Source of the DNA: Mycobacterium sp.
Lineage (GTDB): Bacteria > Actinomycetota > Actinomycetes > Mycobacteriales > Mycobacteriaceae
Direction: 5' to 3'
DNA length: 55,916 bases
Assembly (NCBI RefSeq): GCF_025933915.1
Contig: NZ_JAICZA010000011.1
Coordinates: 1-55,916, forward strand
Shown here: one piece after another, positions 27,551-42,387 of the stretch
Numbering within the stretch: the stretch's first letter is position 1
Layout: the number at the start of each line of letters is the position of its first letter
Made by a program: the position numbers and the translations under genes
The notes under the pieces: model-generated
The model's input: the letters and a program-made list of their open reading frames with translations, nothing else
Told to the model about the DNA's origin: nothing
Database searches by the model: none

Positions 27551-27610
27551 GCCGCGCGGCGGCCCCGCCCGAGGGGGTTTCGCCGGCCGCTGCCGGGGAA
27601 GTCCTCGCCT

Positions 27611-30031
27611 GTGGCCATCGATCGCATCGCGGACCCCTGGGGGACGCGCACCCCATACGAACCCGGCACCCGATGGCCGGACCGGGTCGACACCTACCTG
27701 GCTGACGGGATCACCGCAGAGTCGGTGGATCGCTGGGTGCAATCGGCGGCGGTGCTGCACTCCAACGGTGACGGTCTGGACATCGCCGTCAAGGACGGGC
27801 GGATCGTGGGCGTGCGCGGGCGCGCCGTCGACCGGGTCAACCACGGGCGGCTCGACCCCAAGGATCTGTTCGGCTGGCAGGCCAACGCCTCGGCCGACCG
27901 GCTCACCACACCGATGGTCAGGAGCGGCGGCGAGCTGAAGCCGTGCGACTGGGACACCGCCATGCAGCGGATCGTGGACCGCACCGCGGACTTGCTCGAC
28001 AGCTACGGCCCCAGCTCGATCGGCTTCTACACGTCCGGACAGCTGTTCCTCGAGGAGTACTACACCCAGGGCGCCATCGCGCACGGGGCGATCGGCACCA
28101 ACCACGTCGACGGCAACACCCGGCTGTGCACCGCGACGGCGGCCGAGGCGCTGAAGGAATCGTTCGGCTGCGACGGACAGCCGGGGTCCTACACCGACGT
28201 CGACCATGCCGACGTCATCGCGTTGTTCGGGCACAACGTCGCCGAGACGCAGACGGTGCTGTGGGCGCGGATGCTGGACCGGCTGGCCGGCGACTCGCCG
28301 CCGGCGATCGTCTGCGTCGACCCCCGGCTGACGCCGGTCGCCCGGCGCGCCACCGTCCACCTGGCGCCGGTACCCGGCACCAACGTCGCGTTGATAAACG
28401 GCCTGTTGCACGAGATCATCGGCAGCGGCTGGATCGACCAGGACTACATCGACTCGCACACAGTCGGTTTCGACGAACTGCGCGGGCGGGTCGACGAGTT
28501 CCCGCCCGAGCGGGTCGCCGAGATCTGCGGCGTGCCGGCCGAGGACATCCGGCGCGCGGCGCGGCTGCTCGGCACGGCGGAGCGGCTGCTGTCCACCGTG
28601 CTGCAGGGCTTCTACCAGTCGCACCAGGCCACCGCGGCGGCCGTGCAGGTCAACAACATTCACCTGGTGCGCGGCATGCTGGGCAGGCCCGGCTGCGGCG
28701 TGTTGCAGATGAACGGTCAGCCGACGGCGGAGAACACCCGCGAATGCGGTGCCGACGGGGACCTGGCCGGTTTCCGCAACTGGTCCAACGACTCCCACGT
28801 CGCCGAGTTGGCGAAATTGTGGAACCTCGAGCCCCTGCAGATTCCGCACTACGGTCCGCCCACGCACGCCATGCAGATGTTTCGTTACGCCGAGGAGGGC
28901 ACGCTGCGGATGTTGTGGGTCACCGCCACCAATCCCGCGGTGTCGCTGCCGGAGCTGGCCCGAATCCGCGACATTTTCTCCCAGGAACGGCTGTTCCTGG
29001 TCGTCCAGGACATCTTCCTGACCGAAACCGCCGCGCTGGCCGACGTGGTGTTACCCGCCGCCGCGTGGGCGGAGAAGACCGGCACCTTCACCAACGCCGA
29101 CCGCACCGTGCATCTGTCCGAAAAGGCAGTCCAGGCACCGGGTTCCGCGCGCTCGGACCTCGACATCTTCTTGGACTACGCGCGCCGGATGGACTTCCGC
29201 GACAAAGACGGCCAACCATTTCCGCCCTGGACCGATGCCGAGTCGGCGTTCGAGGCGTGGAAGAAATGCAGCGCGGGCCGGCCGTGCGACTACACGGGTT
29301 TGAGCTACGAGAAGCTGCGCGGCGGCAGCGGCATCCAATGGCCCTGTAACACAGAATATCCCGACGGCACCGAACGGCTCTATGCCGACGCGCAGTTCTG
29401 GGCGAAGCCCGACTACTGCGAGGCATACGGCAAAGACCTGATCACGGGCGCCCCGCTGCAGCCCGACGAATACCGTTCGATGAACCCCCACGGCAAGGCG
29501 ATCATCAAGGCGGCCGAATACGTTCCGCCCCATGAGCGCACCAGTCCTGAGTTCCCATTCGCGCTGATCACCGGCCGCACCGTCTACCACTTTCACACCC
29601 GCACGAAAACCGCGCGGGCACAGCAACTTCAGCAGGCCGCACCCGAGGTATGGGTCGAGGTCTCGGCGGCCGACGCGCGACGCCTGGGCATCGAATCCGG
29701 CGAGCTCGTCGAAGTGAGCACACCGCGCGGCCGCGTCAACTGCGCGGCGCGCATCTGCGGCATCCGCGACGGTGTCCTGTTCGTACCCTTCCATTACGGC
29801 TACTGGGACACCGACGGGGGCGGGACCGGCACGGCCCATCAGCGGGCCGCCAACGAACTCACGCTGACCGATTGGGACCCGGTGTCCAAGCAGCCGATCT
29901 ACAAGACGGCCGCCGCCCGGTTGCACAAAGCCCCCGCGCGGCACGCGCAGAGAAACGGGTCGGTGCCCGCGGGCGCGGCGCCCCTGACCGCGGCTGTGAC
30001 CGAAGTCGTGCCGGCGGGGAGCCGACCATGA
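27611..30031 (+). CDS. Molybdopterin oxidoreductase lacking its [4Fe-4S] cluster cysteines
   Basis: 806 aa from GTG 27611; DMSO-reductase superfamily, NarB/FdhF-like. The N-terminal region where relatives have CxxCxxxC reads AAVLHSNGDG, so the three Cys are Ala47, His50 and Asp54. The fourth position, GRLCPK in relatives, is GRLDPK (Asp82). The conserved Lys after it (Lys84) and the presumed Mo-ligand Cys173 (NTRLCTATAAEA) are retained. So are the cofactor-binding segments (FGHNVAETQ, TNPAVSLPEL, FTNADRTVHLSEKAV) and the C-terminal molydop-binding domain (LITGRTVYHFHTRTKTAR...GVLFVPFHYGYWD). No Tat signal is seen, so it is probably cytoplasmic. The stop overlaps the next start (ATGA). Substrate is unknown. 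Confidence 0.87.
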   Translation: MAIDRIADPWGTRTPYEPGTRWPDRVDTYLADGITAESVDRWVQSAAVLHSNGDGLDIAVKDGRIVGVRGRAVDRVNHGRLDPKDLFGWQANASADRLTTPMVRSGGELKPCDWDTAMQRIVDRTADLLDSYGPSSIGFYTSGQLFLEEYYTQGAIAHGAIGTNHVDGNTRLCTATAAEALKESFGCDGQPGSYTDVDHADVIALFGHNVAETQTVLWARMLDRLAGDSPPAIVCVDPRLTPVARRATVHLAPVPGTNVALINGLLHEIIGSGWIDQDYIDSHTVGFDELRGRVDEFPPERVAEICGVPAEDIRRAARLLGTAERLLSTVLQGFYQSHQATAAAVQVNNIHLVRGMLGRPGCGVLQMNGQPTAENTRECGADGDLAGFRNWSNDSHVAELAKLWNLEPLQIPHYGPPTHAMQMFRYAEEGTLRMLWVTATNPAVSLPELARIRDIFSQERLFLVVQDIFLTETAALADVVLPAAAWAEKTGTFTNADRTVHLSEKAVQAPGSARSDLDIFLDYARRMDFRDKDGQPFPPWTDAESAFEAWKKCSAGRPCDYTGLSYEKLRGGSGIQWPCNTEYPDGTERLYADAQFWAKPDYCEAYGKDLITGAPLQPDEYRSMNPHGKAIIKAAEYVPPHERTSPEFPFALITGRTVYHFHTRTKTARAQQLQQAAPEVWVEVSAADARRLGIESGELVEVSTPRGRVNCAARICGIRDGVLFVPFHYGYWDTDGGGTGTAHQRAANELTLTDWDPVSKQPIYKTAAARLHKAPARHAQRNGSVPAGAAPLTAAVTEVVPAGSRP

Positions 30032-30507
30032 AGCTCAAACCGGCGATCCGCGAACTGCACCGCTCCGAACGCAAGCTGGCCCATGAACTCAACGTGGTGG
30101 CGGCGCGGCACCACAGCGACCAGGACATCAGCCACCTCGCGCGCGACCTGGCCGGCTGGTCACGCGGTCACCTCGCCGAGCTGGCGCGGCACGGCCGCCA
30201 CTACGGCCTGCGCCTGTCCGCCGATCCGCGCACCGGGACGATCACCGGTTTTCTGCAATCGCGGATCAGCGGCCTGCTGCGCCACCGGCCGGAACCCGGC
30301 GTGATGCTGCTCGCCGATCTGCGCCGGATTCACCGGCTGTCGGCGGGGGTGTCGCTGGATTGGGAGCTACTGGCGCAGGGCGCACAGGCGGCCAAGGATT
30401 CCGAACTGCTGAGCCTGGCCTCGCGCTGTCACCCCGAGACGTTGCGGCAAATGCGCTGGGCCAACGCGATGCTGAAAGAGCTTTCACCGCAAGTGCTGAT
30501 GAACTGA
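30028..30507 (+). CDS. Small His/Glu-rich helical protein, possibly ferritin-like
   Basis: 159 aa, all-helical by eye, overlapping the molybdo-enzyme stop by 4 nt (ATGA) and so co-translated. His and Glu/Asp recur at helix spacing: LHRSERKLAHELN (residues 10-22), ARHHSDQDISHLARDL, LAELARHGRHYG, DLRRIHRLSAGVSLDWELLAQG and CHPETLRQMRW. This resembles ferritin-like or DUF892-type bundles that hold a di-metal site, but I recognise no exact family. Context suggests it is a partner, possibly an electron-transfer or maturation factor, of the upstream enzyme. Confidence 0.72.
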   Translation: MKLKPAIRELHRSERKLAHELNVVAARHHSDQDISHLARDLAGWSRGHLAELARHGRHYGLRLSADPRTGTITGFLQSRISGLLRHRPEPGVMLLADLRRIHRLSAGVSLDWELLAQGAQAAKDSELLSLASRCHPETLRQMRWANAMLKELSPQVLMN

Positions 30508-30616: not shown

Positions 30617-31621
30617 TTACCGGAATCGGTCCAGATAAGCCGGCCAATCCCACGTCGACAGGAAGGTCTGCGCCGCCGCATAGCCGCTCTCGTAGAGCTC
30701 TTCGAGACGGCCCCTGGAGATGTCGAAGTCGAGCACGCCGACATCGGTCGATTCGACCGCGATGGCGCGCGCCGCGACCCACGGCTGGCTGAGATGGGTC
30801 TGGTCATGGCCGGCCAGCACGGTGGTGAGCAGGCTTTCCAGCAATGCGGTCTGTTCGAAGAGGCGCAACGGTTTCAGGGCCGGCATCACCGCACCGAGGC
30901 CCTCGGTGAGCCTCGGCAGGACGGTGATCCCGAACGTGGGCCAGCGCGGCGCCCCTCCGTCGGGCCGATCGAAGGTGTCGATGGGGAAATTCGAGAGCAC
31001 CCCGCCGTCGACGAGGGTGGACCTCTTGCCATCGGCGCCGGTCAGCTTGACCGGACGATAGAAGAACGGAATCGCCATCGAGGCGCGCACCGCGTGGGCC
31101 ACCGGCTGCTCATCGGGGTCCAGACCGTAGAGCCGCCGATAGTCCCACGGGAACCGCACCAGCTGGGCCGCGGTCAGGTCCGCGACGGTGACCACCAGCT
31201 TGTTGCGCCGCCCTTCGAGCAGGCCGTCCTCGTCGAGATGCAGATCGCCGAAGAAGGTGACGCCGAAGTTCTTCAACTCGCTGCGAATCCAGTCGTGGGC
31301 GACGTCGCCGCGGTACATGCTCGTTTCGGTCGCCAGCCCCCAGGCCGCACCGAGATAGGGGACGGGCCCGGCGTCGCGCCACTTGCGGAGCGGGACCGAG
31401 AAGGCGAGCTCCTTGACCTGCGCGCCGGTCAGCTGACCGCCGCTGGATCCGGCCGCCAGGATCGCCGCGACCACCGAACCGGCCGAGACCCCGGACACCC
31501 TCTTGATCGAATACCCGGCGTCCATCAGGGCGACGATGGCGCCCACCAGACCGATGAACTTGACGCCTCCGCCGGACAGCACGAGGTCAATGGGTTTCGA
31601 CTGGTTCGCCTCGGATGTCAT
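30617..31621 (-). CDS. Patatin-like phospholipase
   Basis: 334 aa. Oxyanion loop LSGGGVKFIG (residues 15-24), nucleophile elbow GVSAG (Ser46) and the dyad Asp in VDGGVLSNFP are all intact, so it should be an active lipid acyl hydrolase. No signal peptide. The ATG directly follows the cyanase stop codon with no spacer, implying a cynS-patatin operon. Lipid target unknown; the adjacent mycolate-type methyltransferase suggests envelope lipids. Confidence 0.87.
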   Translation of the reverse strand: MTSEANQSKPIDLVLSGGGVKFIGLVGAIVALMDAGYSIKRVSGVSAGSVVAAILAAGSSGGQLTGAQVKELAFSVPLRKWRDAGPVPYLGAAWGLATETSMYRGDVAHDWIRSELKNFGVTFFGDLHLDEDGLLEGRRNKLVVTVADLTAAQLVRFPWDYRRLYGLDPDEQPVAHAVRASMAIPFFYRPVKLTGADGKRSTLVDGGVLSNFPIDTFDRPDGGAPRWPTFGITVLPRLTEGLGAVMPALKPLRLFEQTALLESLLTTVLAGHDQTHLSQPWVAARAIAVESTDVGVLDFDISRGRLEELYESGYAAAQTFLSTWDWPAYLDRFR

Positions 31622-32077
31622 CTACTGCTCCGACGAATCCCATTGATAGGGAAGGAATTTCCCGTCGAAGGTGACCACGACGCGATCGCCGGACGGGTGC
31701 GGTTTCTTCTGTAGGTCGACGCTGAAGTTGATCGCGCTCATGATTCCATCGCCGAACTGTTCGGCGATCAGCTCCTTGAGGGCGCCGCCGTACACCTGCA
31801 GGGCCTCGTAGAAGCGGTAGACGGTCGGGTCGGTCGGCACCGCGCTGGGCAGGCCGCCCCGCATGGGGGCGGCGGCGAGCACGGGCACCGTCGACTGGTC
31901 GAGGCCGAGCATCTCCGCCAGAACCTTGGCCTGATCAACCGGAATGGGATGCTGTCCGAGCAACGCGGCCGTGGTCCACACCACCGGCCTGCCGATGGCG
32001 TCGGCCAGCTGCTGCCACGTCAGCCCCTTGGCCAGGCGCGCGACGACGATCTGTTCGGTGAGTTCGTTTCTCGTCAT
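31622..32077 (-). CDS. cynS: Cyanate hydratase (cyanase)
   Basis: 151 aa from ATG 32077, close to the roughly 156 aa of the family. An N-terminal helical DNA-binding-like domain (residues 1-70) precedes the catalytic domain. The active-site triad Arg88, Glu91 and Ser114 (YRFYEAL, IMSAINF) aligns with Arg96, Glu99 and Ser122 of the E. coli enzyme. Cyanase converts cyanate and bicarbonate to ammonia and CO2. No carbonic anhydrase or cyanate transporter gene is adjacent. The longer open frame to 32854 is an artefact over the upstream gene. Confidence 0.92.
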   Translation of the reverse strand: MTRNELTEQIVVARLAKGLTWQQLADAIGRPVVWTTAALLGQHPIPVDQAKVLAEMLGLDQSTVPVLAAAPMRGGLPSAVPTDPTVYRFYEALQVYGGALKELIAEQFGDGIMSAINFSVDLQKKPHPSGDRVVVTFDGKFLPYQWDSSEQ

Positions 32078-34055: not shown

Positions 34056-37000
34056 ATGCCGCTTCATCTGCACCGCGCCGAGCGCACCGATCTGTTGGCC
34101 GACGGTCTCGGCGCTCTGCTGGCCGACCAGCCGGCCGACCCGTTCGCCCCCGAGCTCGTCGTGGTCCCCGCGCGCGGCGTGGAGCGCTGGCTGAGCCAGC
34201 GGCTGTCGCATGTGCTCGGTCGCGACCGCGGCGGCGACGGGGTGTGCGCCGGGGTTTCATTCCGCAGTCCCGGCTCGCTGATCGCCGAAATCACCGGCAC
34301 CGCCGACGAGGATCCGTGGTCGCCGGACGCCATGGCCTGGCCACTGCTGGAGGCGATCGACTGCTCGCTGGACGAGCCGTGGTGCCGCACGCTGGCCATG
34401 CATGTCGGTCATTTCCACACCGGCGCGGAAGCCGAGCTGCGCAGGGGCCGGCGGTACGAGGTGGCGCACCGGCTGGCCGGGCTGTTCGCCTCCTACGCGC
34501 GGCAGCGCCCCCAGCTGCTGATCGACTGGGGCAACGGCGACCCGGGCGATCTCGACGGGGACCTGGACTGGCAGCCCCAGCTGTGGCGGGCGCTGGTTTC
34601 GCGAGTGGCGGCCGACCCGCCGCACGTTCGCCACGGCAAGACCCTCGCGCGGCTGGCCGAAGCGCCCAGCGACCTGCCCGCTCGGCTGTCGCTGTTCGGG
34701 CACACCCGGTTGGCCCGTACCGATTCCGAGCTGCTGGCCGCCGTGGCCCTCCACCATGAGCTGCATGTGTGGCTGCCGCACCCCAGCGACCCACTGTGGC
34801 GGGCGCTGGCCGATATGCACGGGGCGATTCCTCGCCGGGAGGACACCAGCCATCGGGCCGTGGGCCATCCCCTGCTCGCCACCCTGGGACGGGATCTGCG
34901 CGAACTGCAGCGCAGCCTGCCGGCGGACCCACAGACCGACGAGTACCTGGCCGGCGACGCGCGCCCGGACACGCTGCTCGGCTGGGTGCAGTCCGATATC
35001 GCCGACAACGCCGTTCGGCCGCGGGGGCGCTCGCTGGCCGCCGAGGACCGATCGGTGCAGATCCACAACTGCCACGGCGCGGCCCGCCAGGTCGATGTGC
35101 TGCGCGAGGTGCTGCTCGGCCTGTTGACCGACGACCCGACGCTCGAGCCGCGCGACATCCTGGTGATGTGTCCGGACATCGAAACCTACGCGCCGCTGAT
35201 CGTGGCGGACTTCGGCCTCGGCGACGTGGTGCACGGTGCGCATCCGGCCCACCAGCTTCGGGTGCGGCTGGCGGATCGATCGCTGATTCAGACCAACCCG
35301 CTCCTGCAGGTGGCCTCCCAACTGCTGGCGCTGGCCGGCGGCAGGGTGACGGCCAGTGAGGTGCTCAACCTGGCCCAGGCCGCTCCGGTGCGCGCCCGGT
35401 TCGGCTTCACGGATGACGATCTGGAGGCCATCACCCGCTGGGTGCGGCAGGCGAACATCCGGTGGGGATTGGACCAGGAGCATCGGCGGCCCTACCACGT
35501 CGACTTCGTGCACAACACATGGCGTTTCGGCATCGACCGGATATTGGCCGGCGTCGCGATGTCCGACGACTCGAACGCGTGGATCGACGCGACGCTGCCG
35601 CTCGACGACGTCAGCAGCAACCGCGTCCAATTGGCCGGTCAGTTGGCCGAATTCGTCGCCCGGCTGCAGCACGTGGTCGACTCGCTCACCGGCACCAGGA
35701 CGTTGACCGAGTGGCTGGCCACCCTCGACGACGGCATCACGCTGTTGACGCGCGTGCACGATTCCGACGGATGGCAGACCGGTCAGGTGCGACGCGAGTT
35801 CGCCACGGTCCTGGGGCACGCCGGGTCGCGGGGCGACACCGTGCTGCGGCTGCCCGACATCCGCGCGCTGCTGACCCGGCACCTCGCCGGGCGACCGACG
35901 CGGGCCAACTTCCGCACCGGCACCCTGACGGTGTGCACCATGGTGCCGATGCGCTCGGTCCCCCACCGGGTGGTGTGCCTGGTCGGCCTGGACGACGGGC
36001 TGTTCCCGCGTCTCGGCGCCGTCGACGGTGACGACGTGCTGGCCCGGCGCCCGATGACCGGGGAACGCGACATCCGTTCCGAAGACCGGCAATTGCTGCT
36101 CGACGCGATCTGCGCCGCCACCGAGAAGCTGGTGATCACCTACACCGGCGCCAACGAATACTCGGGGCAGCCACGCCCGCCCGCGGTGCCGCTGGCCGAA
36201 TTGCTCGACACCCTCGACATGACCACGACGACGAAGGTTCGCCACCGCATCGTCGTCGAGCATCCGTTGCAGCCGTTCGACATTCGCAACGTCATCCCGG
36301 GTGAACTGGTGCCGGAGGTGCCGTTCAGTTTCGACCCCACGGTACTGCGCGCGGCGCGCGCGGCCACCGGCGAGCACACCGAACAGCCGAGGTTCATCGC
36401 CGCGCCGCTGCCGCCACCGCCGGCCGGCGACGTCAGCCTGGCCGACCTCGTCGGCTTCTTCAAAGACCCGGTGAAGGGCTTCTTCCGTGCCCTGGAATTC
36501 ACGCTGCCGTACGACGTCGACGGCGTCCAAGATGCCATGCCGGTCGACATCAACGGCCTCGAGGAGTGGACGGTCGGCGACCGGATGCTGGGCGACATCC
36601 TGCGCGGGATGAGCCCCGAGGACGCGCGGCAAGCCGAGTGGCGCCGCGGCACGCTGCCTCCGGGCCAGCTGGGATGGCGCAAGGTCACCGAGATTCGGGA
36701 CCAGGCGGCGACGTTGGCGCTCGAGGCGCTTCGCCATCGGCAAACCCATCGACTCGCCGGCGGCGCCGCCTATGACGTCGACATCGATCTGGGCGTCGGG
36801 CGGCGACTCACCGGCACGGTGTCCCCGGTCTACGGCGATGCCCTGGTATCGGTGACCTATTCCAGGCTGGACGGCAAGCACCTGCTCGAGTCGTGGATTC
36901 CGTTGCTGGCGTTGGCCGCTCACGACCCTGGCCGTGACTGGTCGGCGGCGTGTATCGGCCGCATGCGCAGGGGCACCAGCATCCGGGTGGAGGGCCTGGG

Positions 37001-37355
37001 GCCGCCGGGCGGCGATCCCGTCGAGGTGCTGCGTGAGCTGGTGACGATTTACGATGCGGGACGGCGGGAGCCAATTCCGTTGCCCATCAAGGCATCCTAT
37101 GCCTGGGCGGCCGCGCGGTACGGCGGCGACGATCCGGTGGCCGAGGCGCGGCGCCGATGGAAATCCAGCGATCGGTACCCCGGTGAGGACCAGGCGCCCG
37201 CGCACGTGCGGGCGTGGGGACGCGGCGCACCGCTGGAAGACCTGATGCAGCCGGTGCGGCCGGGCGAGGACTGCGACGGCGAAGACAACCGGCTCGGTGC
37301 CTATGCGGCGCGGCTCTGGCTGCCGATGCTGCGCGCCGAGCGGAAGCCGGCCTGA
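34056..37355 (+). CDS. recC: Exodeoxyribonuclease V subunit gamma (RecC)
   Basis: 1,099 aa, standard length. The inactive-helicase core begins MPLHLHRAERTDLLADGL with LVVVPARGVERWLSQRLS. Later motifs are HNCHGAARQVDVLREVLL, MVPMRSVPHRVVCLVGLDDGLFPR and a RecC C-terminal domain (LADLVGFFKDPVKGFFRALEF). Part of RecBCD, which in mycobacteria acts in single-strand annealing rather than homologous recombination, as established for M. smegmatis. The stop shares a base with the recB start (TGATG). Confidence 0.96.
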   Translation: MPLHLHRAERTDLLADGLGALLADQPADPFAPELVVVPARGVERWLSQRLSHVLGRDRGGDGVCAGVSFRSPGSLIAEITGTADEDPWSPDAMAWPLLEAIDCSLDEPWCRTLAMHVGHFHTGAEAELRRGRRYEVAHRLAGLFASYARQRPQLLIDWGNGDPGDLDGDLDWQPQLWRALVSRVAADPPHVRHGKTLARLAEAPSDLPARLSLFGHTRLARTDSELLAAVALHHELHVWLPHPSDPLWRALADMHGAIPRREDTSHRAVGHPLLATLGRDLRELQRSLPADPQTDEYLAGDARPDTLLGWVQSDIADNAVRPRGRSLAAEDRSVQIHNCHGAARQVDVLREVLLGLLTDDPTLEPRDILVMCPDIETYAPLIVADFGLGDVVHGAHPAHQLRVRLADRSLIQTNPLLQVASQLLALAGGRVTASEVLNLAQAAPVRARFGFTDDDLEAITRWVRQANIRWGLDQEHRRPYHVDFVHNTWRFGIDRILAGVAMSDDSNAWIDATLPLDDVSSNRVQLAGQLAEFVARLQHVVDSLTGTRTLTEWLATLDDGITLLTRVHDSDGWQTGQVRREFATVLGHAGSRGDTVLRLPDIRALLTRHLAGRPTRANFRTGTLTVCTMVPMRSVPHRVVCLVGLDDGLFPRLGAVDGDDVLARRPMTGERDIRSEDRQLLLDAICAATEKLVITYTGANEYSGQPRPPAVPLAELLDTLDMTTTTKVRHRIVVEHPLQPFDIRNVIPGELVPEVPFSFDPTVLRAARAATGEHTEQPRFIAAPLPPPPAGDVSLADLVGFFKDPVKGFFRALEFTLPYDVDGVQDAMPVDINGLEEWTVGDRMLGDILRGMSPEDARQAEWRRGTLPPGQLGWRKVTEIRDQAATLALEALRHRQTHRLAGGAAYDVDIDLGVGRRLTGTVSPVYGDALVSVTYSRLDGKHLLESWIPLLALAAHDPGRDWSAACIGRMRRGTSIRVEGLGPPGGDPVEVLRELVTIYDAGRREPIPLPIKASYAWAAARYGGDDPVAEARRRWKSSDRYPGEDQAPAHVRAWGRGAPLEDLMQPVRPGEDCDGEDNRLGAYAARLWLPMLRAERKPA

Positions 37356-40300
37356 TGGAGCGTTTCGATCTTTTGGGCGCGCTGCCGGCCGAGCGCTCCA
37401 CCACCGTGCTGGAGGCCAGCGCGGGAACCGGCAAGACGTTCGCGCTGGCCGGCCTGGTGACCCGGTATCTCGCCGACGGTGCCGCGAGCCTGGATCAGAT
37501 GCTGCTCATCACGTTCGGCCGCGCCGCCAGCCAGGAGTTACGGGAGCGTGTCCGCTGCCAAATCGTCGATGCCGTAGGCGCTTTCGCCGATCCGTCGACG
37601 GTCGGCGACAACCAGTTGGTGGAGTACCTGCTGGACGGCACCGCCGATCAGCGCGCGGCGCGTTGCCAGCGTCTTCGCGACGCGCTGGCCGGCTTCGACG
37701 CGGCGACGATCGCCACCACCCACCAGTTCTGCCAGCTGGTGCTGCGCTCGCTCGGCGTGGCCGGCGACACCGCGGCCGGCGTGACCCTGCTGGAGAGCCT
37801 CGACGACCTGGTCACCGAGATCGTCGACGATTTGTACCTGGCCCACTTCGGGCAGGAACGCGACGATCCGGCGCTGCACTATCGCGAAGCGCTCCGGCTG
37901 GCACGCGAGGTGGTCAACAACCCGTCGACTCAGCTGCGGCCGCGCGATCCCGATCCCGATTCGAGGGCCGCCGTCAATCTCAGGTTCGCCAACGATGTTC
38001 TGGCCGAACTCGATACGCGCAAGCGCCGACTCGGCGTCCTCGGCTACGACGATCTGCTGATCCGACTGGCCGACGCGCTGGCCACCGACGACTCCCCCGC
38101 CCGGCTGCGCATGCATCGACGCTGGCCGATCGTCATGGTCGACGAGTTCCAGGACACCGACCCGGTGCAATGGCAGGTGATCGACCGCGCGTTCAGCGGG
38201 CGCTCCACCGTGATTCTCATCGGCGACCCTAAGCAGGCGATCTATGCGTTTCGCGGCGGTGACATCGTGACCTACCTGCGGGCGGCGGAGACGGCGGGCC
38301 AGCGCAAGACCCTGGACACCAACTGGCGCAGCGACTCCGCGCTGCTGCAGCGGCTGCAGGTGGTGCTGCGCGGTGCCCAGCTCGGTGACCCCGCCATCGT
38401 GGTGAACGACGTCGGCGCACATCACCGGGGTCATCGGCTCGCCGGCGCGCCGCGCAATGACCCGTTCCGGCTGCGCGTCGTGTCGCGAGAGACGCTGGGG
38501 CGCCGTGGTATTCAAAACCTACCCATCGACGAGCTGCGGGAACACATCGGCGCCGATCTCGCCGCCGACATCCGCGCCCTGCTGGCCGGCGACGCCACGT
38601 TCGACGGCGACCCGCTGCAGGCCCGCGATATCGCCGTCATCGTGGAAAGGCACCGCGACGCGCAGGCGTGCTTCACGGCGCTCTGCGACGCGGGCGTCCC
38701 CGCGGTCTACACCGGAAACACCGATGTCTTCGCCTCCGAGGCCGCCGGGGACTGGTTGTGCCTGCTGGAGGCCTTCGACCAGCCGCACCGGCCCGGCATG
38801 GTGCGTGCGGCCGCGGCGACCATGTTTTTCGGCGAGACCGCCCAAACGCTGGCGGCCGGTGGCGACGCGCTCACGGATCGGATCGCGAAGACCCTGCGGG
38901 AGTGGGCCGGTCATGCGCGCGAGCGCGGTGTCGCGGCCATTTTCGAAGCCGCCCAACTGCTGGGGATGCGGGATCGCGTGCTCGGCTGGCAGGGCGGCGA
39001 GCGACACATGACCGACCTGGCGCATGTCACCCAGCTGCTGCAGGAGGTGGCACACCGCGAGCATTACACCCTGCCGGCGCTGCGCGACTGGCTGCGCCGG
39101 CAACGCGACGAGCGCGCCGGCGCGCCCGAACGCAACCGCCGGCTCGACAGCGACGCCGCCGCCGTCCAGATCATGACCGTCTTCGTCAGCAAGGGCCTGC
39201 AATACCCGATCGTGTATCTGCCGTTCGCGTTCAACCGCAACACCCAGGACAGCGACGTGGTGCTGTTCCACGACGAGGACGGCGCGCGTTGCCTGCACGT
39301 CGGCGGCAAGGACAGCCCCGACTTCAAAGCCGTTGAGCGGCTGGGCCGTAAAGAGGACGCCAGCGACGACAGCCGGCTGACCTATGTCGCGTTGACCAGG
39401 GCGCAGGCCCAGGTGGTGGCCTGGTGGTCACCGGCGTACTACGAACCCAACGGCGGCCTGTCGCGCCTGCTGCGCGGCCGCCGGCCCGGCGATCCGGTCG
39501 TTCCGGACCGGTGTGAACCCGCGAAGATCTCCGACGGAGACGCCCTCGCCCGGTTGCGCGAGTGGGAGGCCGCCGGCGGTCCGGTCATCGAGGACTCGGT
39601 GGTGGCGCCGGCCCCCGCGCTGTCACCCGCCCCGACGCCCGCCAACCTGGGGAGCCGCCACTTCCACCGCGGCATCGACACCGCGTGGCGGCGCACCTCC
39701 TACTCCGGCCTGATCCGTGGCGCCCAAACCAGCGGGGTGAGCAGCGAACCCGACGTCGCCGAACTCGACGACGAGGTCGGCGATATCCCGTTGGCTTTCC
39801 CGGTGACCGGCCCGGACGTGCCCTCGCCGATGGCGGACCTTCCGGCGGGCGCCACCTTTGGCACCCTGGTGCACGCCGTGCTGGAGACGGCCGACCCGTT
39901 CGCCGCGGATCTGGCCGCCGAGCTAGCGGCGCAGATCCGGGAGCACTCGGCGTGGTGGCCGGTCGCCGCTGCCCCCGAGGAACTGGCCGCGGCGATGGTG
40001 CCGATGCATGACACACCGCTCGGCCCGTTGGCGGGCGGAATGACGCTGCGCCACATCGGGCTGTCGGATCGATTGCGCGAACTCGATTTTGAGCTGCCGC
40101 TGGCCGGCGGTGATCGACGTTCGGCGGCGCCCGAGGTGCGCTTGGCGGATCTGGCGCCGCTGCTGCGCGAGCACCTCCCGGCCGACGATCCGCTGGCATC
40201 GTATGCCGACCGGTTGATGGACCCGGGTCTCGGTGCGCAGTCGTTACGCGGATACCTCACCGGCTCGATCGACGCCGTGCTGCGCATTCCCGACGGCTCG

Positions 40301-40657
40301 GGGCACCGCTTCGTGGTGGTGGATTACAAGACCAACCGGCTCGGGGATCCGGAGCGGCCGCTGACGGCCGCCGACTACGACCGGCCGCGGATGGCGGAGG
40401 CGATGTTGCACTCGGACTATCCGCTGCAGGCGCTGCTGTATAGCGCGGTATTGCATCGGTTCTTGCGTTGGCGACTACCGGATTACGACCCGTGCCGGCA
40501 TCTCGGTGGCGTGCTTTACCTGTTCGTGCGAGGCATGTGCGGCGCCGCTACCCCGGTGCTCGACGGGCATCCGTCGGGCGTCTTCAGCTGGCAGCCGCCG
40601 CCGTCGTTGATCGCGGCTCTGTCGGATCTGCTCGATGCCCAGGGGGTGCCCGCGTGA
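37355..40657 (+). CDS. recB: Exodeoxyribonuclease V subunit beta (RecB)
   Basis: 1,100 aa from ATG 37355. It has an N-terminal UvrD-type helicase: Walker A ASAGTGKTF (residues 21-29), LITFGRAASQELRERVR, Walker B VDEFQDTDPVQWQ (about 263-275) and GDPKQAIYAFRGGD. The C-terminal nuclease has the Asp...DYK active site (SIDAVLRI ... VVVDYKTNRLG, about 970-993) and the following PLQALLYSAVLHRFL helix. It overlaps recC by 1 nt and recD by 4 nt (GTGA). Confidence 0.96.
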   Translation: MERFDLLGALPAERSTTVLEASAGTGKTFALAGLVTRYLADGAASLDQMLLITFGRAASQELRERVRCQIVDAVGAFADPSTVGDNQLVEYLLDGTADQRAARCQRLRDALAGFDAATIATTHQFCQLVLRSLGVAGDTAAGVTLLESLDDLVTEIVDDLYLAHFGQERDDPALHYREALRLAREVVNNPSTQLRPRDPDPDSRAAVNLRFANDVLAELDTRKRRLGVLGYDDLLIRLADALATDDSPARLRMHRRWPIVMVDEFQDTDPVQWQVIDRAFSGRSTVILIGDPKQAIYAFRGGDIVTYLRAAETAGQRKTLDTNWRSDSALLQRLQVVLRGAQLGDPAIVVNDVGAHHRGHRLAGAPRNDPFRLRVVSRETLGRRGIQNLPIDELREHIGADLAADIRALLAGDATFDGDPLQARDIAVIVERHRDAQACFTALCDAGVPAVYTGNTDVFASEAAGDWLCLLEAFDQPHRPGMVRAAAATMFFGETAQTLAAGGDALTDRIAKTLREWAGHARERGVAAIFEAAQLLGMRDRVLGWQGGERHMTDLAHVTQLLQEVAHREHYTLPALRDWLRRQRDERAGAPERNRRLDSDAAAVQIMTVFVSKGLQYPIVYLPFAFNRNTQDSDVVLFHDEDGARCLHVGGKDSPDFKAVERLGRKEDASDDSRLTYVALTRAQAQVVAWWSPAYYEPNGGLSRLLRGRRPGDPVVPDRCEPAKISDGDALARLREWEAAGGPVIEDSVVAPAPALSPAPTPANLGSRHFHRGIDTAWRRTSYSGLIRGAQTSGVSSEPDVAELDDEVGDIPLAFPVTGPDVPSPMADLPAGATFGTLVHAVLETADPFAADLAAELAAQIREHSAWWPVAAAPEELAAAMVPMHDTPLGPLAGGMTLRHIGLSDRLRELDFELPLAGGDRRSAAPEVRLADLAPLLREHLPADDPLASYADRLMDPGLGAQSLRGYLTGSIDAVLRIPDGSGHRFVVVDYKTNRLGDPERPLTAADYDRPRMAEAMLHSDYPLQALLYSAVLHRFLRWRLPDYDPCRHLGGVLYLFVRGMCGAATPVLDGHPSGVFSWQPPPSLIAALSDLLDAQGVPA

Positions 40658-42387
40658 CGGTGGAGGTGGTGTCCGGGACTCCGTTCAAAGCGGGATTGCT
40701 GCGCACGTTCAGCGATGCCGGCATCTTTGAGCCCGCGGATATTCATGTGGCGCAACGCCTTACCGTGCTCACAGGTGAATCCGACGACCGGGTGGCGCTG
40801 GCGGTCGCCCTCGTGGTGCGTGCGCTGCGGGGCGGTTCGGTCTGCGTCGATCTCCGCGCGGCGCCCGCACAGATCGGCGACCCCGACCTGCCCTGGCCCG
40901 GCGCCGACGACTGGATGGCGGCGGTGCGGGCCAGTCCCTTGCTCGGACCGCCACCCGTGCTGCGGATATTCGGCGAGCTGCTGTACTTCGACCGCTACTG
41001 GCTCGAGGAAGAGCAGGTCTGCACCGACCTGCTGGCGCTGTCAGCGGCCCCGGTCACCGTCGAACCAGCCAGCTATGAAAGGCTTTTCGAGCCCGGTTAC
41101 GAAGAACAGCGGGCGGCCGCCGAAATCGCGGTCTCGCAGCCGGTGACGGTGCTGACCGGCGGGCCCGGCACCGGCAAGACCACCACGATCGCGCGGCTGC
41201 TCGCGCTGCTGGTCGAGCAGGCGCAGCGGGCCGGCCTGCCGCGACCCCGGATTGCGCTGGCCGCACCGACGGGTAAGGCGGCGGCGCGGCTGGCCGAGGC
41301 GGTGGCCGCGGGAGCAGACGAGCTCGGCGCGGCCGACAGGGCGCGGCTGACCGGCCTGCCGGGGACCACGCTGCACCGGCTGCTGGGGCCCCGGCCGGAT
41401 ACGTCGGTGCGGTTCAAGCACAATCGCGCCAATCGGCTGCCGCACGACATCATCGTGGTCGACGAGACGTCGATGGTGTCGTTGACGATGATGGCTCGCC
41501 TGGTCGAAGCGGTCCGGCCGGACTCGCGGCTGATCCTGGTCGGCGATCCGGACCAGTTGGCCTCGGTGGAAGCGGGGGCCGTGCTGGCCGATCTGGTGGA
41601 TGGGCTGGCCGCCCGGGACGACGTGCGGGTCGCCGCCCTGCGCACGCCGCACCGATTCGGCGCGTCGATCGGCGCGCTGGCCGAAGCCATCCGGGTCGGC
41701 GACGCGGACCGGGTGGTCGGGTTGCTGGCGGCGGGCGGTGAGCATGTCGAGTGGGTGGATTCCGGGCGCCCGGCCGACCGGCTGCGCGAGGTGCTGGTTT
41801 CGCACGCGCTGCGGCTGCGCTCGGCGGCGCTGCTGGGCGCGGCGGACGAGGCGTTGTCCACGCTGGACGAGCACCGGCTGTTGTGCGCGCACCGCGAGGG
41901 GCCGTATGGGGCGACGCATTGGAACACGCTGGTGCAGAAGTGGCTTGCCGAAGCGACCGGCCAGCCGGCCTGGTCGCAGTGGTACGCCGGGCGTCCACTG
42001 CTGGTGACGGCGAACGACTACGGGCTGCGGCTCTACAACGGCGACACCGGAGTGACGGTGGCCGGCGCGGAGGGCCTGCGGGCCCTCATCGCCGGCGCCT
42101 CCGGGCCGCTGGACTTCGCGACCAGCCGCCTCGGCGAGGTGGAGACGATGCATGCCATGACCATCCACAAGAGTCAGGGCAGCCAGGCCGACGAGGTGAC
42201 CGTGTTGATACCGCCGGAGGATTCGCGGCTGCTGACGCGGGAACTGTTCTACACGGCCGTGACCCGGGCGAAGGCCAGGGTGCGGGTGGTGGGGCCCGAG
42301 GCGTCGGTGCGCGCGGCGATCGAGCGCAGGGCGATGCGGGCCACCGGACTGCGGCAGCGGTTGCGCGCCGACGACGCGACGACGTGA
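40654..42387 (+). CDS. recD: Exodeoxyribonuclease V subunit alpha (RecD)
   Basis: 577 aa from GTG 40654, which overlaps the recB stop. Superfamily 1B 5'-3' helicase: Walker A TGGPGTGKTTT (about residues 168-178), VVDETSMVS (about 268), LVGDPDQLASVEAGAVLADL and the C-terminal MHAMTIHKSQGSQADEVTV with ELFYTAVTRAK. With RecB and RecC it unwinds DNA ends. The open frame upstream of 40654 belongs to another frame of recB. Confidence 0.96.
   Translation: MTVEVVSGTPFKAGLLRTFSDAGIFEPADIHVAQRLTVLTGESDDRVALAVALVVRALRGGSVCVDLRAAPAQIGDPDLPWPGADDWMAAVRASPLLGPPPVLRIFGELLYFDRYWLEEEQVCTDLLALSAAPVTVEPASYERLFEPGYEEQRAAAEIAVSQPVTVLTGGPGTGKTTTIARLLALLVEQAQRAGLPRPRIALAAPTGKAAARLAEAVAAGADELGAADRARLTGLPGTTLHRLLGPRPDTSVRFKHNRANRLPHDIIVVDETSMVSLTMMARLVEAVRPDSRLILVGDPDQLASVEAGAVLADLVDGLAARDDVRVAALRTPHRFGASIGALAEAIRVGDADRVVGLLAAGGEHVEWVDSGRPADRLREVLVSHALRLRSAALLGAADEALSTLDEHRLLCAHREGPYGATHWNTLVQKWLAEATGQPAWSQWYAGRPLLVTANDYGLRLYNGDTGVTVAGAEGLRALIAGASGPLDFATSRLGEVETMHAMTIHKSQGSQADEVTVLIPPEDSRLLTRELFYTAVTRAKARVRVVGPEASVRAAIERRAMRATGLRQRLRADDATT

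Follow-up and report, generated by a model that had tools for sequence, protein, structure and literature searches.

A predicted cluster-free, Cys-ligated molybdopterin oxidoreductase clade with a ferritin-fold partner in Actinomycetota

The type I nitrate reductases NapA, NarB and NasN carry molybdopterin and dinucleotide-binding domains, cluster cysteines and a cysteine at molybdenum (Mo-Cys). A Met beside the Mo-Cys and another at the NapA 308 column are part of the definition of the NapA/NarB type. The type III DMSO, TMAO and biotin sulfoxide reductases (DorA, TorA and BisC) have cluster-free catalytic subunits, and in BisC and DorA electrons reach a Ser-ligated Mo at its open face, through the substrate funnel. 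NuoG and QrcB have lost the Mo function. The Bacillus ForCE formate dehydrogenases keep their clusters in ForC. The Ser at Mo of the type III enzymes is given in part of PMC7759655, and an excerpt of PMC9370002 describes the Rhodobacter DMSO reductases as having no further redox chromophores. An excerpt of PMC8808070 describes ForCE as a Mo-bisPGD enzyme of type I whose operon also encodes a single small partner subunit, unprecedented and predicted to carry no cofactor, a layout that resembles the one reported here.

The window, the whole 55,916 nucleotide stretch of Mycobacterium sp. DNA that was analysed, encodes a predicted cluster-free molybdopterin oxidoreductase, NarB/NapA-like, at 27611 to 30031 on the plus strand (806 amino acids, GTG start). 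It shares the molybdopterin and dinucleotide-binding domains and the Mo-Cys with NapA, NarB and NasN but lacks their cluster cysteines, has Thr and Gln for the two Met near Mo, and comes with a ferritin-fold partner and a SigF-type promoter box. Pfam matched PF00384 (1e-55) and PF01568, the dinucleotide-binding domain (2.7e-29), while no Pfam match to PF04879 (Fe4S4 domain) was found in the enzyme at E 0.001. The former CxxCxxxC stretch now reads Ala47-x2-His50-x3-Asp54 (27749 to 27772, plus strand), encoded by GCG at 27749-27751, CAC at 27758-27760 and GAC at 27770-27772. Around the former fourth ligand the loop reads Asp82-Pro-Lys84-Asp85 (27854 to 27865, plus strand), with Asp82 as GAC at 27854-27856 and Lys84 as AAG at 27860-27862. 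Cys173, the predicted Mo ligand by HMMER alignment, is encoded by TGC at 28127-28129 (plus strand) and is followed by Thr174, where ten four-Cys rows have Met. In a HMMER comparison with solved structures Ala47, His50, Asp54, Asp82 and Cys173 aligned with the cluster cysteines and the Mo-Cys of Desulfovibrio NapA. An earlier note on this DNA had read the four cluster-Cys columns and the retained Lys84 and Cys173 in the same way; codons and alignment agree with it on the former, and codons and relatives on the latter.

The cluster ligands are missing from the sequence of the enzyme, and it has Cys173 where the type III catalytic subunits have Ser. The NCBIfam model TIGR00509 (bisC_fam) scored 108.2 bits, far below its cut-off of 1017.55. 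The enzyme may work like a cluster-free reductase, yet it lies outside type III (Cys, not Ser) and lacks the cluster cysteines of NapA/NarB. The literature searched, which was available in part, yielded no account of a cluster-free clade with Cys-ligated Mo.

CxxCxxxC is intact in three further superfamily proteins of this assembly, as CAYCGVGC, CILCECNC and CRICTTVC, so motifs of this kind do not go missing in it. One of the three is NasN-like with a flavodoxin-type tail, its architecture having been assigned by eye. The earlier note had named Cys at these columns in close homologues from the same species as evidence against it; none was found in the same genome. A sequencing error or a lone pseudogene was ruled out by the intact motifs elsewhere in the assembly and by residues fixed in the relatives.

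A database search scored 7999 candidates, 7954 of them at E 0.001, and the best 120 (77-94% identity) were used. His50, Asp54, Lys84 and Cys173 were present in 120/120 of these, and position 47 was Ala in 96 and Ser in 24. A genome scan with the M. smegmatis relative P0116 as query returned at least 575 loci, of which the best 80 were used; the same four residues were found in 80/80. Position 47 in these loci was Ala in 34, Ser in 35 and Thr in 11, and position 82 was Asp in 43 and Gly in 37. The genera represented include Mycobacterium, Nocardia, Rhodococcus, Streptomyces, Arthrobacter, Nocardiopsis, Modestobacter and Glycomyces. The alignment of close homologues that the earlier note had proposed thus has His50 and Asp54 fixed in all 200 relatives, which were taken as best hits and not selected by motif. 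With 14 rows placed by motif and the window itself the group comprises 215 His/Asp rows, all with both residues.

Both 120-protein sets used here are best hits to one query each, one His/Asp and one three-Cys, and the 80 loci are likewise the best of a longer list, so intermediates could be under-sampled in all of these. A less biased, evenly drawn phylum sample contained a family member at ≥50% identity in 19/296 genomes, with at most three candidates scored in nearly every listed genome. Among these 19 family genomes the best copy belonged to the His/Asp type 17 times and to the three-Cys type twice, with no intermediates; this counts one copy per genome, and a second copy in G173 stands outside it. 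The family is common to many actinobacteria and the His/Asp substitution is fixed in a large clade. Four plasmid relatives at about 60% identity from outside Actinomycetota (Deinococcus, Gloeothece, Hymenobacter and Halomonas) are of the three-Cys type.

The nearest Cys-bearing relatives keep Cys47, Cys50 and Cys54 and have Gly at the fourth position in all 121 rows with a letter there. This sister group (for example Arthrobacter, Curtobacterium, Deinococcus, Gloeothece, Hymenobacter and Halomonas) is annotated as nitrate reductase or molybdopterin oxidoreductase. It shares the core Mo-pocket residues and mostly the ferritin-fold partner with the His/Asp clade, and differs from it in Cys47/50/54, Gly82 and Gly85. 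Identity to the window protein was 57-62% in seven loci checked and 53% in the short L119 piece. PF04879 was still recognised by Pfam in one sister sequence (L102) and was precomputed for most listed relatives. Ten more distant aligned members (≤40% identity) carry all four cysteines.

A quick tree with long outgroup branches was built from 82 of the 347 aligned rows, hand-picked for spread, with L110 and L115-L117 left out (the large alignment leaves out L105, L106 and L112). The His/Asp rows fell on one side of a branch with SH-aLRT 98, the three-Cys rows lay in between and the four-Cys rows outside. The three-Cys group was paraphyletic only through L104 (support 89). A stepwise loss from four Cys to three to none is likely, within the limits set by the long outgroup branches. 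The fourth cysteine was probably lost before the other three, because the sister group already has Gly there. The statement in the earlier note that all four cysteines had been replaced therefore stands in that none is left, but the tree suggests more than a single event. That note does not mention the three-Cys sister group, the ferritin-fold partner gene or the SigF-type box.

Some single loci are recorded here. Streptomyces sp. DH24 has a three-Cys copy (L046 139-1428) about 5 kb upstream of its own His/Asp gene, with family similarity stopping part-way. A Staphylococcus saprophyticus plasmid enzyme (L124 3950-6376, 42% identity) likewise carries three Cys, with Gly in the fourth place, and no ferritin-fold partner was matched in its locus. 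The deep-branching three-Cys member L104 (1477-3837, minus strand) is likewise without a detected partner, and the ORF upstream of it resembles, by eye, a GltD-type NADPH oxidoreductase.

In a column-by-column comparison of the 215 His/Asp rows and 122 three-Cys rows, just three columns were invariant within each group but differed between them: 50 (H/C), 54 (D/C) and 85 (D/G). Column 47 was Ala, Ser or Thr in the His/Asp rows and Cys in the three-Cys rows, and residue sets were also disjoint at 9, 204, 738 and 739. Within the predicted Mo pocket, Cys173, Thr174, Asn375 and Arg377 were identical in all rows of both groups (215/215 and 122/122). Gln332 was found in 214/215 His/Asp and 121/122 three-Cys rows, Glu378 in 214/215 and 122/122, and Lys84 in 215/215 His/Asp rows. 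The pocket-adjacent columns 164, 374, 376 and 414 differ between the groups in most rows, and the His413 column is Asp or Ser in 17/122 three-Cys rows. Met occupies 174 and 332 in 10/10 four-Cys rows, which sets these rows apart from the other two groups. The pocket core was thus conserved as the cluster site was refilled, since Cys173, Thr174, Asn375 and Arg377 are identical and 50, 54 and 85 have switched. A side-chain group of His50, Asp54 and Asp85, the last following Lys84 on the former fourth-ligand loop, is plausible from these columns.

It is a tentative possibility that His50, Asp54 and Asp85, with Ser, Ala or Thr47 nearby, bind a single Fe, Zn or Mn as a new redox or structural centre adjoining Mo. 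The earlier note had raised an unusual metal site for His and Asp, to which the comparison adds Asp85 as a third residue fixed together with them. His and Asp are metal ligands, the three residues occupy the second and third cluster-ligand positions and the one next to the fourth, all are invariant in 215 rows, and theirs are the only columns to have switched from one fixed residue to another. However, they offer only three candidate ligands with one His, and a salt-bridge network explains the same conservation. Confidence at the site is also low in the predicted structure: pLDDT was below 50 at residues 48-53 and 169-172 (models were built on 73 and 58 of 81 sequences), so the geometry of His50, Asp54, Asp85 and the Mo-Cys loop cannot be read from it. 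The fuller proposal is unlikely: a [4Fe-4S] cluster swapped for a mononuclear His-Asp-Asp site beside a Cys-ligated Mo, in nearly the same pocket, with a ferritin-fold subunit and in general-stress use across Actinomycetota.

We consider it rather unlikely that the gene encodes a variant of ordinary nitrate reductase, still active on nitrate in assimilation. In favour of this reading, Arg377-Glu378 occurs as in 9/10 four-Cys rows and the best structural match is NapA. TM_HPP-like membrane proteins follow the enzyme in five His/Asp loci, all early-branching, and in four three-Cys loci (Pfam was run on two); a member of the HPP family is a candidate nitrite transporter according to an excerpt of PMC4137279, and these neighbours hint at nitrogen-oxide chemistry. 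Against this reading, Thr174 and Gln332 stand where all ten four-Cys rows have Met, and the window genome also has the NasN-like CxxCxxxC protein. The M. smegmatis 'nitrate reductase' P0116 (795 amino acids) falls in the His/Asp clade. We infer that it is MSMEG_2837 because the operon layout agrees and the only non-NarB entry of fitting length in a table of PMC7816997, seen in part, is NuoG (794 amino acids). Deletion of narB in M. smegmatis left nitrate assimilation and nitrate reductase activity intact according to the same excerpt, which speaks against a role in nitrate assimilation if narB is the orthologue. No narB transcript was found there in the media used, although RNA-seq in another study (PMC4881515, in part) did detect it.

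The same deletion result, with no nitrate phenotype in the part of PMC7816997 available, would also suit a degenerate, Moco-free scaffold or regulatory protein. Changed FS0 cysteines in NarG block Moco insertion according to an excerpt of PMC10609526, and the title of a reference cited there gives the same effect for DmsA, so a member that has lost its cluster ligands could be Moco-free. This reading is nevertheless very doubtful. Mo-Cys173, Lys84 and Arg377 are kept in 215/215 rows and Glu378 in 214/215, and the dinucleotide-binding domain is strong (2.7e-29). A moaA match was present in 19/19 family genomes but also in 254/296 overall, and this co-occurrence gives weak support for Moco.

The partner gene lies at 30028 to 30507 on the plus strand and encodes a protein of 159 amino acids predicted to be a four-helix ferritin-fold protein. 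Its start overlaps the enzyme stop as ATGA. The partner was directly downstream of the enzyme in 80/80 best loci, with the 4-base overlap in 73/80. In the phylum sample of 296 genomes the enzyme was found in 19, a partner match in 19 and both in 17. A ferritin-fold partner was also present in six of seven three-Cys loci checked, L104 being the one without it. On a Halomonas sp. KO116 plasmid (L121 3983-6811) a 942 amino acid ORF fuses a three-Cys enzyme to a ferritin-fold domain. HPP and fdhD genes come after this fused ORF.

The partner fits the four-helix ferritin fold. The di-iron ligand set of the ferritin-like superfamily includes ExxH on helix B, and this motif was found in 0/31 aligned partners; the position three before His48 was Ser or Cys in 31/31, never Glu. 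Glu14 and His28 were present in 30/31 and His48 and Asp97 in 31/31. These 31 sequences comprise 10 of the 81 locus partners and 21 others, with L119 left out as its frame is broken. The partner as query gave no useful match against Pfam and PDB sequences, and Foldseek gave only weak ferritin matches, none at E <0.001. Sequence identity to the YciE/bacterioferritin superfamily was 5-14% in the listed rows, and the partner differs from it in lacking ExxH. It also differs from Bacillus ForE, which is DUF1641 and not known as ferritin-fold. The partner was disfavoured as a replacement electron carrier, because it lacks the ferritin ExxH ligands and also accompanies enzymes of the three-Cys sister group.

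A same-genus genome in which no family enzyme was found has only a 30-residue partner match (G038:C1:4167114-4167203), flanked by stops, and this may be the remnant of a lost enzyme/partner pair. In the window the pair adjoins a patatin-like phospholipase gene (30617-31621, minus strand). Past this is a cyanate hydratase gene, CynS (31625-32077, minus strand; PF02560, 8.7e-34). RecC-, RecB- and RecD-like genes follow in tandem as overlapping ORFs (34056-42387, plus strand).

A putative SigF-type promoter box, GTTT-N15-GGGAA, was found by pattern match at 27577 to 27600 on the plus strand. GTTT-N14-17-GGG[TA]A occurred at most 150 bases upstream in 50/80 best loci against 4/1904 random pieces of the loci, which are therefore mostly coding. 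The pattern had been widened to GGG[TA]A after a first count of 49/80 against 10/1600. Many of the 30/80 loci without the box belong to Streptomyces, Micrococcales or Geodermatophilaceae. The box was found in 0/6 three-Cys loci, in 4/7 early-branching His/Asp loci (as the GGGAA form) and not in L123. SigF boxes of the GTTT/GGG kind are tabulated in PMC4694148, in the part available. It also gives reduced levels in a sigF mutant for MSMEG_2837 ('Nitrate reductase NarB') and its neighbour MSMEG_2838 ('conserved hypothetical'), together with the box GTTT-N16-GGGTA. The window gene is putatively under SigF-type control, though the box alone is no proof of this in the host species, and a role in stationary-phase or oxidative stress is likely.

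The leading reading, to which we give an even chance, is a stress-induced, cluster-free, Cys-ligated Mo-bisMGD reductase that receives electrons directly at the Mo face and not via a cluster. As judged from its residues, it would bind Mo-bisMGD and no cluster, and electrons would likely reach it by a route different from that of its relatives, as the earlier note had also reasoned. With the cluster gone they would have to enter at the open Mo face. Mo would be reduced through the substrate funnel by a soluble donor of small size, for example NAD(P)H or a reduced flavin, and an oxidised substrate would then be reduced at the same Mo site. The best guess for this substrate is an N- or S-oxide or an oxyanion. 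As the cluster ligands of NarG are needed for Moco insertion, a substitute for them would be needed here; His50, Asp54 and Asp85 may take up the space left by the cluster and form a polar network that holds the loop and keeps the fold ready for cofactor insertion. The partner would be a permanent subunit rather than a new electron wire, because enzymes of the three-Cys sister group are already accompanied by it. No recurrent electron-donor gene was found beside the pair among the 62/80 loci clustered. The largest neighbour cluster comprised eight loci and did not appear to be one gene, and most others occurred only in related mycobacteria.

Many database entries name members of this clade 'nitrate reductase', a label that may misdirect the annotation of nitrate metabolism in mycobacteria. 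The clade would be useful as a test series because the cluster ligands are absent, the Mo-Cys is kept and the core pocket is common to the three-Cys sister group. The series of four, three and no Cys offers a comparison in which the purpose of the cluster, and cluster-free electron entry to Mo, could be tested.
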